This document shows, in pieces, positions 7,286 to 10,020 of a DNA stretch of 64,000 nt. Made by a program: the position numbers and the translations under genes. How positions within the stretch are numbered: the stretch's first letter is position 1; each line of letters opens with the position of its first letter. Origin of the DNA: Chitinophagaceae bacterium. GTDB lineage: Bacteria > Bacteroidota > Bacteroidia > Chitinophagales > Chitinophagaceae. The notes under the pieces are model-generated. The model saw only the letters and a program-made list of their open reading frames with translations. It was not told where the DNA came from and searched no databases. The DNA lies in NCBI GenBank assembly GCA_019752045.1, contig JAIEMP010000004.1, positions 248,001 to 312,000 of the forward strand. The letters are read 5' to 3'.

Positions 7286-7996
7286 ATGGTGCGGAACTTC
7301 GTCCGTCAAATATTACCTGCAAAAAATAAATTCGAAAGTAACCTTCGCAATATTCTCGGCTATAGTCCAGGGGATCTTTTACTGTATAAAACAGCATTAA
7401 GCCATCGTTCAATTAAAGAAGGCAGCGATCAGAATAATGAACGGATGGAATTTTTAGGTGATGCTGTACTGAGTGCTGTGGTAGCAGATTATCTGTTTAA
7501 AAAATATCCCTATAAGGGCGAAGGGTTTCTTACTGAGATGAGGAGTAAAATGGTAAACCGTGCTACGCTCAATGATATTGCTGTAAGAATGGGATTGAAA
7601 AAAGTAACCCTCTATAACAAAGGTGATAACTCTCTGAAAATTTCTCAGATATTCGGCAATACGCTGGAAGCCTTACTGGGCGCCATTTATCTTGATCTGG
7701 GGTATAACAAAACAAAGAAATGGATTATGAAAAATATCATCACTCCATATTTGTTTATGGAAGAACTGGAGTTGCTTGAAATTAATCATAAAAATAAATT
7801 GTACGGCTGGGCCAATAAAAACGGTAAAGTTCTTGACTTTGAAACACTGGATGAGCGATTGGAAAACGGTCGCCGCCTGTTTACCATTGGTGCTGTTGTA
7901 GATGGCGAAGTGATCTCAGAAGGAAAAGCGTTTAATAAAAAAGATGCCAGTCAGATTGCAGCACAGACAGCAGTAGAAAAACTCGGCATCATCTGA
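7286..7996 (+). CDS. rnc: Ribonuclease III
   Basis: 236 residues. The RNase III signature NERMEFLGDAVL is at about residues 51-62, supplying the metal-binding Glu and Asp; the second acidic site is in GNTLEALLGAIYLDLG. A C-terminal double-stranded-RNA-binding domain occupies about 168-236, ending in KKDASQIAAQTAVEKLG. The enzyme cuts double-stranded RNA in rRNA precursors and some mRNAs. The acpP-fabF-rnc order is conserved across many bacteria. The start used is the ATG at 7286; an internal start nearer KNKFESNLR would lose only a short extension. Confidence 0.95.
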   Translation: MVRNFVRQILPAKNKFESNLRNILGYSPGDLLLYKTALSHRSIKEGSDQNNERMEFLGDAVLSAVVADYLFKKYPYKGEGFLTEMRSKMVNRATLNDIAVRMGLKKVTLYNKGDNSLKISQIFGNTLEALLGAIYLDLGYNKTKKWIMKNIITPYLFMEELELLEINHKNKLYGWANKNGKVLDFETLDERLENGRRLFTIGAVVDGEVISEGKAFNKKDASQIAAQTAVEKLGII

Positions 7997-8019
7997 TCTC
8001 GTTTTTATTTTTCTTGTAT

Positions 8020-8484
8020 ATGACTCCTCTGTTTAAAAAACTTAACTACAAAACACAGGGCACAATTGTATCCATTCATCACCCTGATAGTTTTTTGCCG
8101 GAGCTTAAATCTATGAGTGAAGAAGCAACGATCATTGATTCTCTTAGTAAGGCAAAACACATCGGGTTTGTGATTGTGTTTGCAATAAAACAGAAGGAAG
8201 TAAATGTAGCTGCTGAACAAATAGCAAAGAAAGCTGCTGAAGATGCAGTGATCTGGTTCTGCTATCCCAAAGGAACATCCAAAAAATATACCTGCGAATT
8301 TAACCGTGATAACGGCTGGGCCAAACTTGGTGAACTTGGTTATGAACCCGTGCGGGCTGTGGCTATTGATGAAGACTGGAGTGCATTACGTTTTCGCAAA
8401 GCAGAACATATAAAAACAATGACACGTTCATTTGCTATGACAGAAGTTGGCAAGAAGAAAGTGGGGGCTGTGAAGAAAAAATAA
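8020..8484 (+). CDS. Conserved small protein of unknown function
   Basis: 154 residues from ATG 8020 (a TTG two codons earlier is in frame but less likely). I do not recognise a named family. The protein has alternating strands and helices, a block VIWFCYPKGTSKKYTCEFNR, and a lysine-rich tail (GKKKVGAVKKK). It has no signal peptide or membrane segment, so it should be cytoplasmic. It lies 23 bases after rnc on the same strand and is closed by the terminator at 8501-8535, so it is probably the last gene of the acpP-fabF-rnc unit. The segment upstream contains TATTTTTC, one mismatch from a -7 box. Confidence 0.7.
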   Translation: MTPLFKKLNYKTQGTIVSIHHPDSFLPELKSMSEEATIIDSLSKAKHIGFVIVFAIKQKEVNVAAEQIAKKAAEDAVIWFCYPKGTSKKYTCEFNRDNGWAKLGELGYEPVRAVAIDEDWSALRFRKAEHIKTMTRSFAMTEVGKKKVGAVKKK

Positions 8485-8500
8485 AAATGGTTTGAAAACA

Positions 8501-8535
8501 AAAATGCTCAACAGGTTTTCTGTTGAGCATTTTTT
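8501..8535. terminator. Strong bidirectional terminator between rnc unit and tRNA-Ser locus
   Basis: A 14-bp perfect stem (arms 8501-8514 and 8520-8533, loop GTTTT) with T runs on both strands. On the plus strand it ends the rnc unit. On the minus strand it lies just beyond the tRNA-Ser 3' relic and can end transcription from the tRNA/GIY-YIG locus. Confidence 0.9.
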
Positions 8536-8537
8536 GT

Positions 8538-8600
8538 GCGGAGACGAAGGGATTCGTCCCGATTTATCGGGATGATACAGTTTCCAGTATACACACTTTC
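8538..8600 (-). pseudogene. tRNA-Ser 3' relic (from anticodon loop to acceptor end)
   Basis: On the minus strand this repeats the intact tRNA-Ser from the anticodon (GAAAGTGTGTATAC) to the acceptor stem and discriminator. 8538-8556 is identical to 8907-8925, and 8573-8600 matches 8932-8959 with one mismatch. Six bases of the T arm are replaced by a 16-base palindrome at 8557-8572, so it cannot fold as a tRNA. Upstream of the anticodon the match stops abruptly. With the 5' relic at 9028-9069 it seems to be the remainder of an older tRNA-Ser gene. Confidence 0.88.
8557..8572. repeat. Palindrome inside the tRNA 3' relic
   Basis: TCCCGATTTATCGGGA, a 7-bp inverted repeat with a 2-base centre, replacing six bases of the T arm. 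A related palindrome with the same outer TCCCGA/TCGGGA arms is in the other relic at 9039-9054. Confidence 0.85.
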
Positions 8601-8639
8601 TGCAGCAGTAAAGTCTTCAATTGTTCTAAGTTTTTGTTT

Positions 8640-8903
8640 TTACAGCTTCCAATTTTTTATTAAGTTTTCAATGAATGTTCTGCTCTTCATTTTCTTAATT
8701 TGTTTTTCTCTGAGTAAGGCAGCTGTTCGTGTAGGAACAAGTTCAAAATAGACTAAACGTAATGGTCTTTTTGAAGAAGTGTATTTGCTAAAGCCATCAT
8801 TGTGTTTTGACATACGTTTGTCAAGGTCTGTACATTGACCTGTGTAAAAAGAAAAATCCTTCTGGCTTTGAAGGATGTAAACATAAAATTTTTCTTCTTG
8901 CAT
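8640..8903 (-). CDS. Small GIY-YIG family nuclease, directly downstream of tRNA-Ser
   Basis: 87 residues, essentially one GIY-YIG domain as in small UvrC/Slx1-type family members. Visible motifs are YVYIL and YTG for the two halves of GIY-YIG, an Arg in DKRMSKHN, the metal-binding Glu expected in [10 protein letters not shown], and a C-terminal IKNW. The family cuts DNA (repair, homing or mobile elements); this protein has no extra DNA-binding domain. Its ATG lies 5 bases after the tRNA-Ser discriminator base, and no promoter separates them, so it is probably co-transcribed with the tRNA and released by tRNA 3' processing. A tRNA-Ser 3' relic lies 39 bases after its stop. The layout suggests a minimal mobile gene; activity is untested. 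Confidence 0.88.
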
Positions 8904-8907
8904 TTTG

Positions 8908-8994
8908 CGGAGACGAAGGGATTCGAACCCTTGATACAGTTTCCCGTATACACACTTTCCAGGCGTGCTCCTTCAACCACTCGGACACGTCTCC
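8908..8994 (-). tRNA. tRNA-Ser (anticodon GGA)
   Basis: 87 nt, class II tRNA. The acceptor stem GGAGACG pairs with CGTCTCC, followed by discriminator G (normal for Ser). The anticodon loop CTGGAAA has anticodon GGA (codons UCC/UCU) on a CACGC/GTGTG stem. A long variable arm (TATACGGGAAACTGTATC) and T arm AAGGG-TTCGAAT-CCCTT are intact. The DNA continues with CA after the discriminator, so full CCA is not encoded. The tRNA is flanked on both sides by broken copies of itself and followed at once by a GIY-YIG gene. Confidence 0.97.
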
Positions 8995-9027
8995 GTTAAT
9001 TATATAGCCTTATTTCAAAAATCTTAG

Positions 9028-9069
9028 TACACACTTTCTCCCGATACTTCGGGAACAGGTATCCGTTAA
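9028..9069 (-). pseudogene. tRNA-Ser 5' relic
   Basis: On the minus strand it begins TTAACGGATACCTG, aligning with the start of the intact tRNA plus its six upstream bases (TTAACGGAGACGTG) with two mismatches and a small insertion. It then loses the D arm and 5' anticodon strand to a 16-base palindrome (9039-9054) and ends with GAAAGTGTGTA (9028-9038), identical to the tRNA anticodon 3' strand and to the start of the 3' relic. It retains a promoter box just upstream (9077-9084). The 5' match is short, so confidence is lower than for the 3' relic. Confidence 0.72.
9039..9054. repeat. Palindrome inside the tRNA 5' relic
   Basis: TCCCGATACTTCGGGA: arms TCCCGA and TCGGGA around four bases, the same arms as the palindrome at 8557-8572. 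Confidence 0.82.
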
Positions 9070-9076
9070 GGGGCAG

Positions 9077-9084
9077 CAAAAATA
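9077..9084 (-). promoter_or_regulatory. -7 promoter box upstream of tRNA-Ser locus
   Basis: Minus-strand TATTTTTG matches TAnnTTTG and lies 15 bases before the tRNA 5' relic's first base. It probably was the promoter of the original tRNA gene and can still read through the relic into the intact tRNA. A clear -33 element is not seen. Confidence 0.55.
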
Positions 9085-9096
9085 CAGTTAGTTAAC

Positions 9097-9858
9097 TCAG
9101 CTGCCGAATAAATTTTGAGCGTTCTTTGTGGTTTCACGAATAATTTCTTCTGTTGATAAACCCATCGCCTCAGCCATTTTTTCAACAACATAAGTAAGAT
9201 AGGCAGGCTCATTTCGCTTTCCCCTAAAAGGCACAGGAGTTAAATAAGGAGCATCAGTTTCCAGTACAAGATGATTGATTGAAGTTGTTTGGAGTACATC
9301 AGAAAGTCCGGATTTTTTATATGTAACAACACCTCCGATACCCATTAAAAATCCCAGATCAATAATTTGCCGGGCTTCTTCGGCTGTTCCTCCAAAACAG
9401 TGAAATATTCCTTTGAGTTTTCCATTTTGATTTACCCGTACAAGATCAATACAATCCTGCATCGAATCCCGGCTGTGGATCACAACAGGCAGGTTTAACT
9501 CTTTTGCCCAATTGATTTGTTGTTGAAATGCGTGTTTTTGTTCAGCAATAAATGTTTTATCCCAATAATAATCCAACCCGATTTCACCTACTGCAGCAAA
9601 AGGTCTTTTTCTGAGCCATTCCTCAACAATTTTTAATTCCTGATTATAGTGTTCATTCACCGAACAGGGGTGCAGGCCCATCATAGCGATGCATTTACCC
9701 GGGTATTGTGCTTCTACCTCCAGCAGATCAGCAACGGAGCTGCTGTCTATATTAGGCAAATAAAATTTGCTGATTCCCTGCTTTTCAGCTCTGGAAACAA
9801 CATCGGCAAGATCTTCCTTAAACTCACCGAGGTAGAGATGTGTATGTGTATCAATCAT
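9097..9858 (-). CDS. tatD: TatD family metal-dependent hydrolase
   Basis: 253 residues from ATG 9858 (the open frame extends to a TTG five codons earlier, but MIDTHTHLY is the normal start). Metal ligands appear in order: IDTHTH at the N-terminus, Glu in VGEIGLDYYW, His in LPVVIHSRDS, His in GIFHCFGG, and Asp in LETDAPYLTP. The TIM-barrel family includes 3'-5' DNase/RNase and D-aminoacyl-tRNA-related activities. It is a single gene with promoter box TACTTTTG at 9871-9878. Confidence 0.94.
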   Translation of the reverse strand: MIDTHTHLYLGEFKEDLADVVSRAEKQGISKFYLPNIDSSSVADLLEVEAQYPGKCIAMMGLHPCSVNEHYNQELKIVEEWLRKRPFAAVGEIGLDYYWDKTFIAEQKHAFQQQINWAKELNLPVVIHSRDSMQDCIDLVRVNQNGKLKGIFHCFGGTAEEARQIIDLGFLMGIGGVVTYKKSGLSDVLQTTSINHLVLETDAPYLTPVPFRGKRNEPAYLTYVVEKMAEAMGLSTEEIIRETTKNAQNLFGS

Positions 9859-9870
9859 ATTTTGGAACGT

Positions 9871-9878
9871 CAAAAGTA
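9871..9878 (-). promoter_or_regulatory. tatD -7 box
   Basis: Minus-strand TACTTTTG matches TAnnTTTG, 12 bases before the ATG at 9858; this also argues against the TTG at 9873 as start. Confidence 0.55.
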
Positions 9879-10020
9879 AGATCTTCCTGTTTTAAGCGTT
9901 CTTAGAACTGTATTCAACCCTATACAAATAAAATATTTTTTAACAGAGTTTAAACCAACTGAAACCCTTAGAGTCTCTTAATAGTTCGTTTCATTTAAAA
10001 ACCTAAAAAAAGCGTATATC

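Follow-up and report, generated by a model that had tools for sequence, protein, structure and literature searches.

Organisation of the tRNA-Ser locus

The window, a 64-kb stretch of the 4.16 Mb genome of a Chitinophagaceae bacterium (G000), carries a single tRNA gene recognised by ARAGORN, tRNA-Ser(gga) at nt 8907–8994 on the minus strand, which matches Rfam RF00005 (55.4 bits); no other Ser(gga) gene was found in that genome. Just 3 bases separate its called 3' end from the ATG of a small ORF specifying a GIY-YIG protein (hereafter GIY), and two direct repeats, one of 28 nt (8573–8600 versus 8932–8959, 96%) and one of 23 nt (8534–8556 versus 8903–8925, 96%), mark a partial copy of the 3' part of the tRNA. 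Read from tatD along the minus strand, the features are as follows.

9077–9084, minus strand: TATTTTTG, candidate promoter, fitting TAnnTTTG (read from the sequence)
9028–9064, minus strand: 5' partial tRNA-Ser, made up of first bases, hairpin and GAAAGTGTGTA (tRNA nt 36–46); from repeats, clearer in G003 and G008
9039–9054, minus strand: hairpin TCCCGAAGTATCGGGA within the 5' copy (inverted-repeat search)
8907–8994, minus strand: intact tRNA-Ser(GGA) (ARAGORN, Rfam)
8640–8903, minus strand: predicted GIY-YIG nuclease ORF, 87 aa (Pfam, alignment, model)
8538–8600, minus strand: 3' partial tRNA-Ser, nt 36 to the 3' end (direct repeats, second-copy survey)
8557–8572, minus strand: hairpin TCCCGATAAATCGGGA in the T arm of the 3' copy (inverted-repeat search)
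8500–8534, minus strand: terminator-like hairpin with 15-bp arms (repeats, comparison with G013)

The consensus of the -7 box in Bacteroidota is TAnnTTTG, and TATTTTTG is the probable promoter of the tRNA-GIY unit; by eye, the same stretch is also seen 5' of the tRNA in the related genomes G012 and G003, which carry the GIY gene, and in several relatives that do not. At the other end of the unit, a similar terminator-like hairpin directly follows the single tRNA of G013, a relative without the GIY gene. A search of the locus (nt 7500–10,000, E up to 1) against Rfam returned no intron match, of group I or otherwise, and the 427-bp insert contains no ORF of integrase size (Pfam was run on the GIY ORF only).

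An earlier note on this DNA had described an intact tRNA-Ser(GGA) and a small GIY-YIG gene between partial copies of tRNA-Ser, and on this ARAGORN, Rfam, Pfam and the repeats agree. The 11-mer that it found in both partial copies is real, forming part of the 12-mer TACACACTTTCT present at 8590–8601 and 9028–9039. Its reading as a target-site duplication had to be given up. The partial tRNA-Ser copies of G003 and G008 read ...GGAG or CTGG, then TCCCG..CGGGA, then GAAAGTGTG, so that the same edge follows a hairpin there, and the sister genome G012 carries the element without any 5' piece. In the window the 5' piece contains the first tRNA bases and the 11-mer, and a hairpin stands where the D arm and one half of the anticodon arm would be; in the 3' copy, too, a hairpin has altered the T arm. 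By this comparison the 11-mer is what a TCCCGA..TCGGGA hairpin left over when it took the place of one half of the anticodon arm; no target-site duplication is needed, because replacement of CACGCCTG left the same GAAAGTGTG edge. Taken alone, the 5' relic is weak as a tRNA piece; it is counted as one on the strength of 5' pieces in G003 and G008 that are built alike and easier to recognise. Since G012 has the element and lacks this piece, it looks like a separate event, and the likely order in the window is a single tRNA, then a GIY gene plus 3' copy, with the 5' scrap arising separately.

The GIY-YIG protein

The 87 aa product of the ORF (nt 8640–8903, minus strand) matches the Pfam GIY-YIG domain PF01541 (54.4 bits, E 1.6e-14), and residues Y9, Y20, G22, R30 and E66 are invariant in 21 aligned rows. 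The predicted structure (pLDDT 88.5) comprises the catalytic domain only, with no added DNA-binding part. Its nearest solved folds are UPF0213 protein BH0048 (1zg2), which is the best sequence match as well, followed by Slx1; I-TevI and UvrC are weaker. Judged by sequence, catalytic residues and modelled fold, the protein is a member of the GIY-YIG superfamily and a predicted nuclease. GIY enzymes are DNA nucleases, and GIY-YIG proteins of the UPF0213/Slx1 type are structure-specific or uncharacterised cellular proteins that, to our knowledge, show no linkage to tRNA genes. The window protein had no PHROG and no NCBIfam match at E 1e-3. The closest GIY in a wider database, from a Chitinophagaceae metagenome-assembled genome (MAG), is 93% identical. 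In seven of eight pairs dN/dS lies between 0.06 and 0.18 (in the eighth, G000/G003, dS is saturated), and these low values argue for a working protein.

Other GIY genes in the same genome

G000 carries 12 PF01541 matches, including proteins of 604 and 457 aa. Seven of the 12 follow a tRNA on the same strand, and six tRNA kinds are involved: Ser(gct), Arg(tct), Ser(gga), Arg(ccg) twice, Met(cat) and Asn(gtt). Chance adjacency was rejected (~0.002 expected per GIY, P ~1e-16 for 7/12 under a simple uniform model in which the two Arg(ccg) pairs, being one tandem, are not independent). At Arg(tct) the GIY reading frame stops within the second tRNA copy. The Arg(ccg) locus has two GIYs and two tRNA copies filled with hairpins, in alternation.

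The genome also contains tRNA scraps without a nearby GIY, beside Ala (L155), Leu caa (L154), Arg acg (L167) and Arg cct (L173), and also Met/Ile cat. Scrap units lying upstream at these four loci keep the tRNA start, and downstream ones (Ala) extend into the terminator. Scraps beside GIY-less tRNA genes would fit lost elements, as expected if elements decay.

Occupied and empty sites in relatives

The TatD protein of the window was sought in 29 relatives (30 rows), and 18 tatD loci were inspected, the 12 further rows being left aside. Three are occupied (G000, G012 and G003). In ten (G013, G007, G010, G009, G001, G015, G006, G005, G019 and G017) a single tRNA-Ser(gga) follows tatD and no GIY was found by profile, and five lack the tRNA (G011, G002, G008, G014 and G025). 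The DNA of eight of the ten empty loci was read (G019 and G017 were not printed), and no tRNA scraps were seen in it. In G012, the TatD of which is 93% identical, the tRNA, GIY and 3' copy are present and the 5' scrap is absent; the G003 locus has 5' scrap, intact tRNA, GIY and 3' copy. The intact tRNA-Ser is identical in the occupied genomes G000 and G012 and in the empty G013, so protection of the donor is not accounted for by reading the GIY as a homing gene.

Turnover is visible within the sister pair G000/G012, where loci were paired by isotype. GIYs occupy eight tRNA genes in all. Three of these sites (Ser gga, Ser gct, Arg tct) are occupied in both genomes and five in one only: Arg ccg, Asn and Met in G000, and His (with a stop) and Pro ggg in G012. 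In the comparison of sister loci, neither GIY nor scraps were found at Arg(ccg) of G012 or His of G000; flanks were aligned for these two loci only, over the upstream side and the tRNA, with the downstream boundary judged by eye. Together with rnpB (see below), Ser(gga), Arg(ccg) and His are thus sites at which the gene is present and absent in close relatives, the distribution expected of a homing gene.

Survey of tRNA-linked GIY genes

A profile built from 21 tRNA-linked rows was searched in 118 evenly drawn genomes of the window's phylum and gave matches in at least 74, with up to 22 copies in one genome (G080) among the matches listed. The loci surveyed were 30 including that of the window, 60 further stretches chosen among the matches listed, and the loci of relatives; the places are the best-scoring profile matches among those listed. 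After GIY domains shorter than 150 nt, those with E above 1e-5 and duplicate places had been left out, 174 distinct GIY places remained, spread over 63 genomes; 148 of them, from 61 genomes, had a profile score of at least 60.

A tRNA lies within 500 bp of 114 of these 148 GIYs, on the same strand in 114/114, upstream in 91 and downstream in 23. Rows of family f1 are partly circular here, because the profile was built from tRNA-linked rows (one seed row, L084, came from outside f1); outside the window's own family, 81/111 GIYs have a tRNA within 500 bp. At a profile score of 25 or more, 29 anticodon kinds were tallied beside GIYs. Weaker GIYs (score 25–60) had a tRNA at only 2/24, and two others had none. 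The earlier note had proposed that tRNA genes serve as target for a homing-like unit, and both of its expectations were borne out: relatives with one unbroken tRNA-Ser(gga) and no GIY were sought and ten were found, and GIYs are enriched beside tRNAs. Neither of the outcomes that it named beforehand as speaking against the idea, a tandem array without an empty site or a lack of enrichment, was observed.

Among the 34 GIYs without a near tRNA, a tRNA-like piece was located no more than 300 bp away, on either flank, in 26 cases, compared with 5/163 single stretches in a control that tests one stretch each where the loci were tested on two sides. One of the 26 pieces is the 3' end of a tmRNA (L218). 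The remaining eight comprise two GIYs in rnpB, one second unit after tmRNA, three tandem units and two that are unexplained (L002, L117). An Rfam scan of 18 loci without an intact tRNA returned rnpB (2) and tmRNA (1) above gathering scores.

On the far side of the GIY, a second, partial copy of the same tRNA was present at 96/112 loci, compared with 12/112 when far sides were swapped between loci of different amino acids; at 16/112 no second copy was found. Where the intact tRNA is upstream, the second copy keeps the 3' end in 66/76 cases and nt 1–3 in six, and where it is downstream, nt 1–3 are kept in 16/20 and the 3' end in two. The GIY therefore usually has a tRNA start on one side and a tRNA end on the other. 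In L004, ARAGORN took the hairpin-bearing copy for a tRNA, so that one case counted as 'downstream' belongs with the upstream ones. As read from these loci, the element consists of a gene for a GIY-YIG protein of ~85 aa between a complete and a truncated, often hairpin-broken copy of an RNA gene.

Units can also be repeated, as in the tandem GIY-tRNA arrays of L210 (8 units), L118 and L211. In L210 (G080) each of the eight GIY units is followed by a hairpin-bearing 3' copy of tRNA-Met, and the upstream partner is only a tRNA 3' half. Outside Bacteroidota, the same anatomy of tRNA, GIY and second copy was seen in a Calditrichota MAG (L316, Pro(cgg)) and a Patescibacteria MAG (L317, Glu, with a hairpin-filled 5' copy); among 24 loci from the wider database, those of Chloroflexi, Omnitrophota, an alphaproteobacterium and Latescibacteria were without a tRNA by ARAGORN. 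Less similar GIY ORFs (53–55%) occur at L337–L340 (G148, G194, G154 and G181), and at L338 and L339 the ORF lies inside an apparent integron-integrase gene (judged from translation), between inverted repeats like CCCCGTTAGAAA / TTTCTAACGGGG.

GIY genes in RNase P RNA and tmRNA genes

At L209 and L250 the RNase P RNA gene itself contains the GIY: the 5' strand of P2 is followed by a long helix whose loop holds the ORF, and this by GAGGAAAGTCC (helix names by our own reading). G081 and G092 have one RF00010 match each, and in the congeners G054, G065, G127 and G096 a short P3 occupies this position. Nine of 92 genomes of that family carry a relative of the rnpB GIY, four of them elsewhere and five in the RNase P RNA, with the ORF in the P3 loop: L250 (G092), L209 (G081), L334 (G145), L335 (G164) and L336 (G167). 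Paired with their own partners, the P3 helix arms give -20.5, -11.6, -11.4 and -13.9 kcal/mol, and mixed pairs give -0.1 to -10.3 (the arms of G081 and G145 are identical, and that of G167 is cut by the contig end). The arms vary and pair best with their own partners; therefore the helix has been kept while its letters change. The rnpB insertions duplicate no RNA gene, and there is no second copy. The tmRNA case (L218, G059; reverse strand 666–1920) has two tandem GIY units after tmRNA, separated by copies of the tmRNA downstream region. These loci show that, besides tRNA genes, the P3 loop of RNase P RNA and tmRNA also serve as sites for related copies.

Hairpins in the tRNA copies

Both partial copies in the window hold a CCCGA..TCGGG hairpin (8558–8571 and 9040–9053), the only two in the 64 kb; in 100 shuffles of the window the mean was 0.05, and none had two. 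Over the survey, 59/102 second copies contain 69 insertions between matching tRNA parts, mainly in the D, anticodon, variable and T loops. Inverted-repeat arms of at least 5 bp are present in 55/69 inserts versus 74/345 control stretches, and arms of at least 6 bp in 42/69 versus 26/345. Copies of tRNA-Asp have the insert near nt 50–60 in five genomes of four families, and two further Asp copies have it before nt 51; Ser copies have inserts in the anticodon and T arms, the arms of which differ in letters yet pair (by eye). Since hairpins recur at like positions for some tRNA kinds, decay alone is no explanation.

The T-loop insert place is GTTC^GA in several copies. The phage nuclease SegB is reported to have the motif RAWTSGAAC, to cut inside tRNA genes and to drive tandem amplification in phage T6 (PMC13096335). 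By our own reading the reverse complement of this motif, GTTCSAWTY, corresponds to the tRNA T loop, and the insert place lies within it, which may hint at a link to SegB.

Genome-wide, CCCGAN{2,9}TCGGG occurs at 50 places in the 4.16 Mb (18 for a reversed-pattern control), and ten of the 50 lie within 400 bp of a tRNA where 0.35 would be expected; of these ten, two adjoin a tRNA and are terminator-like, and one is internal to a tRNA. The hairpins are probably more than plain genome-wide repeats. On contig 14 of G000 (L157:252-686) an IS200-like Y1 transposase (PF01797) is flanked by CCCCGACTTTTAAGTCGGGG hairpins. The hairpins of the tRNA copies may derive from REP elements, with the Y1 transposase of L157 as a possible source.

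The hairpin-bearing copy could also be a partner in its own right, a working pseudo-tRNA that binds, guides or restrains the nuclease as in a toxin‒antitoxin or RNA-guided system. The shared insert place in several families for some tRNA kinds, the excess of inserts with arms and the pairing of divergent Ser arms would suit such a role; against it, the second copy is often decayed or not found, its hairpins differ from copy to copy in both number and position, no second copy accompanies the rnpB cases, and GIY enzymes act on DNA. On balance this explanation is considered quite unlikely.

Target specificity and movement

In a tree of the GIYs (148 rows, 83 columns) there are 48 changes of target group, compared with a mean of 107.9 after shuffling (0/200 as low), although many forks are unresolved and near-copies in tandem arrays add to the clustering. 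Of the 148 rows, 133 were labelled: 114 took the label of the tRNA within 500 bp, and 19 (tandem units, relics, tmRNA and rnpB) were assigned manually. The 15 unlabelled rows form a group of their own in the 48. Counted by other labels, the changes number 39 for amino acid, 58 for host family and 98 for genome. Leu, Met, Pro and one Ser clade each cover several host families, and the Gly clade covers one. The GIY phylogeny, as reconstructed here, tracks tRNA identity more than host, the specificity looked for in a homing gene.

Ordinary tandem duplication of tRNA genes followed by slow decay, with the GIY as an unrelated neighbour, might leave GIY-less tandem scraps such as those in G000 (Ala, Leu caa, Arg acg, Arg cct). 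It is hard to reconcile with the enrichment of GIYs beside tRNAs and their strand bias, with a GIY tree that follows the target, or with the single tRNA at the site in ten relatives, and is regarded as highly improbable.

The G003 locus bears on transfer between species. Its clade (G007, G010, G001) has tRNA-Ser of the AGAGAGG type, and its 3' copy is of the GGAGACG type, identical at 53/53 nt to G000, G012 and G013 and 91% identical to the neighbouring tRNA (in the TatD tree the G008 row, with 23% identity, was disregarded as wrongly cut). The simplest reading is that the GIY and tRNA copy of G003 came from the GGAGACG-type lineage; the unit then seems to have brought the broken copy, while the resident gene stayed whole. 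The proposal in the earlier note that the insert brings the working tRNA and breaks the old gene is therefore not general, since in G003 the intact gene is the clade-typical one. In 95 loci, six second copies were nearer to the tRNA of another genome; for three, all Arg tct, the cause is a miscalled tRNA, which leaves a foreign-looking second copy at 3/92 loci. Sequence comparison thus lends some support, at a few loci, to a possible spread between species. No vehicle was found: the best relative in phages had 48% identity (22 records), all 30 plasmid records were below 60% identity, and a single-protein search for close relatives in viral contigs returned none.

Local events were also considered. 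GIYs might be recombination genes of host or phage origin that cause tandem amplification of tRNAs in place, with no homing and with the extra copies as decaying by-products. PMC13096335 reports that SegB cleaves in tRNA genes and drives tandem amplification of tRNA plus segB; tandem GIY-tRNA arrays exist (L210 with 8 units, L118, L211), and the majority of second copies resemble the adjacent tRNA at least as closely as that of any other genome. Such amplification fits poorly with scrap-free empty sites in sister species, a phylogeny ordered by target across host families, the foreign-type copy in G003 and rnpB insertions without duplication of the RNA gene, and is held to be unlikely.

Interpretation

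The GIYs are probably selfish genes of a minimal, homing-like and site-specific kind, and each of their lineages would be bound to a single housekeeping RNA gene. The nuclease would probably cut the DNA of one particular tRNA gene in cells free of the element, and repair from element-bearing DNA, with the tRNA as homology, would insert the GIY together with an extra tRNA copy, so that the host keeps one working gene. The extra copy would then be free to change. Hairpins in its loops may break the direct repeat, hindering recombinational loss, and may destroy nuclease sites. Comparison shows that lineages specialise by tRNA identity, decay and get lost, leaving tRNA scraps. The donor would have to escape cutting, and a carrier would presumably move the element between cells.

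A further reading, which is possible though doubtful, is that these genes represent a separate selfish class locked onto essential RNA genes, with a bare GIY-YIG lineage for each structured RNA, be it a tRNA identity, tmRNA or the P3 helix of RNase P RNA, in which the hairpin-armoured tRNA copy is a built-in part, either immune (uncuttable) or an RNA/DNA structure that directs the nuclease. If true, the class would consist of a small structure-reading nuclease working with a pseudo-tRNA partner.

The homing-like interpretation, if correct, would account for the several tiny GIY-YIG genes in many Bacteroidota genomes and would identify very small chromosomal homing-like elements housed in essential RNA genes. 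It makes testable the questions of how an 85-aa catalytic domain reaches specificity for tRNA identity, how tRNA genes survive as nuclease targets, and how the tRNA scraps and hairpins found next to tRNA genes arise. The insert size tolerated in P3 of an essential ribozyme could naturally be tested in the RNase P cases, and the nucleases might be of use as small site-specific enzymes. Among the matches listed in the literature searched (which excluded subscription papers and preprints), there was neither a tRNA-linked chromosomal GIY family nor a nuclease ORF in bacterial RNase P RNA; the accessible part of PMC1564403 contains no word beginning with Bacteroid.

Comparison with known systems

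The window protein resembles GIY-YIG domains of the UPF0213/Slx1 type, its best match in sequence and fold, and differs from them in its linkage to a tRNA. Integrative elements and genomic islands sit at tRNA genes, bounded by a whole and a partial copy; the present elements share these bounds and leave the host gene functional, whereas the insert of ~0.4 kb is too small for an integrase and contains just one gene, for a nuclease. Group I introns with homing endonucleases occur in bacterial tRNA genes, and like them the GIY would be a selfish nuclease gene kept harmless inside an RNA gene, but there is no intron: the RNA gene is duplicated instead or, in rnpB, the ORF lies in a loop. The nearest systems in function would be free-standing homing endonucleases such as phage SegB, which is reported to adjoin tRNAs with no isotype favoured (PMC13096335). 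By that description both are small free-standing GIY-YIG genes beside tRNA genes; unlike SegB, the elements described here reside in bacterial chromosomes, form lineages tied to tRNA identity and are accompanied by a second tRNA copy and its hairpins.
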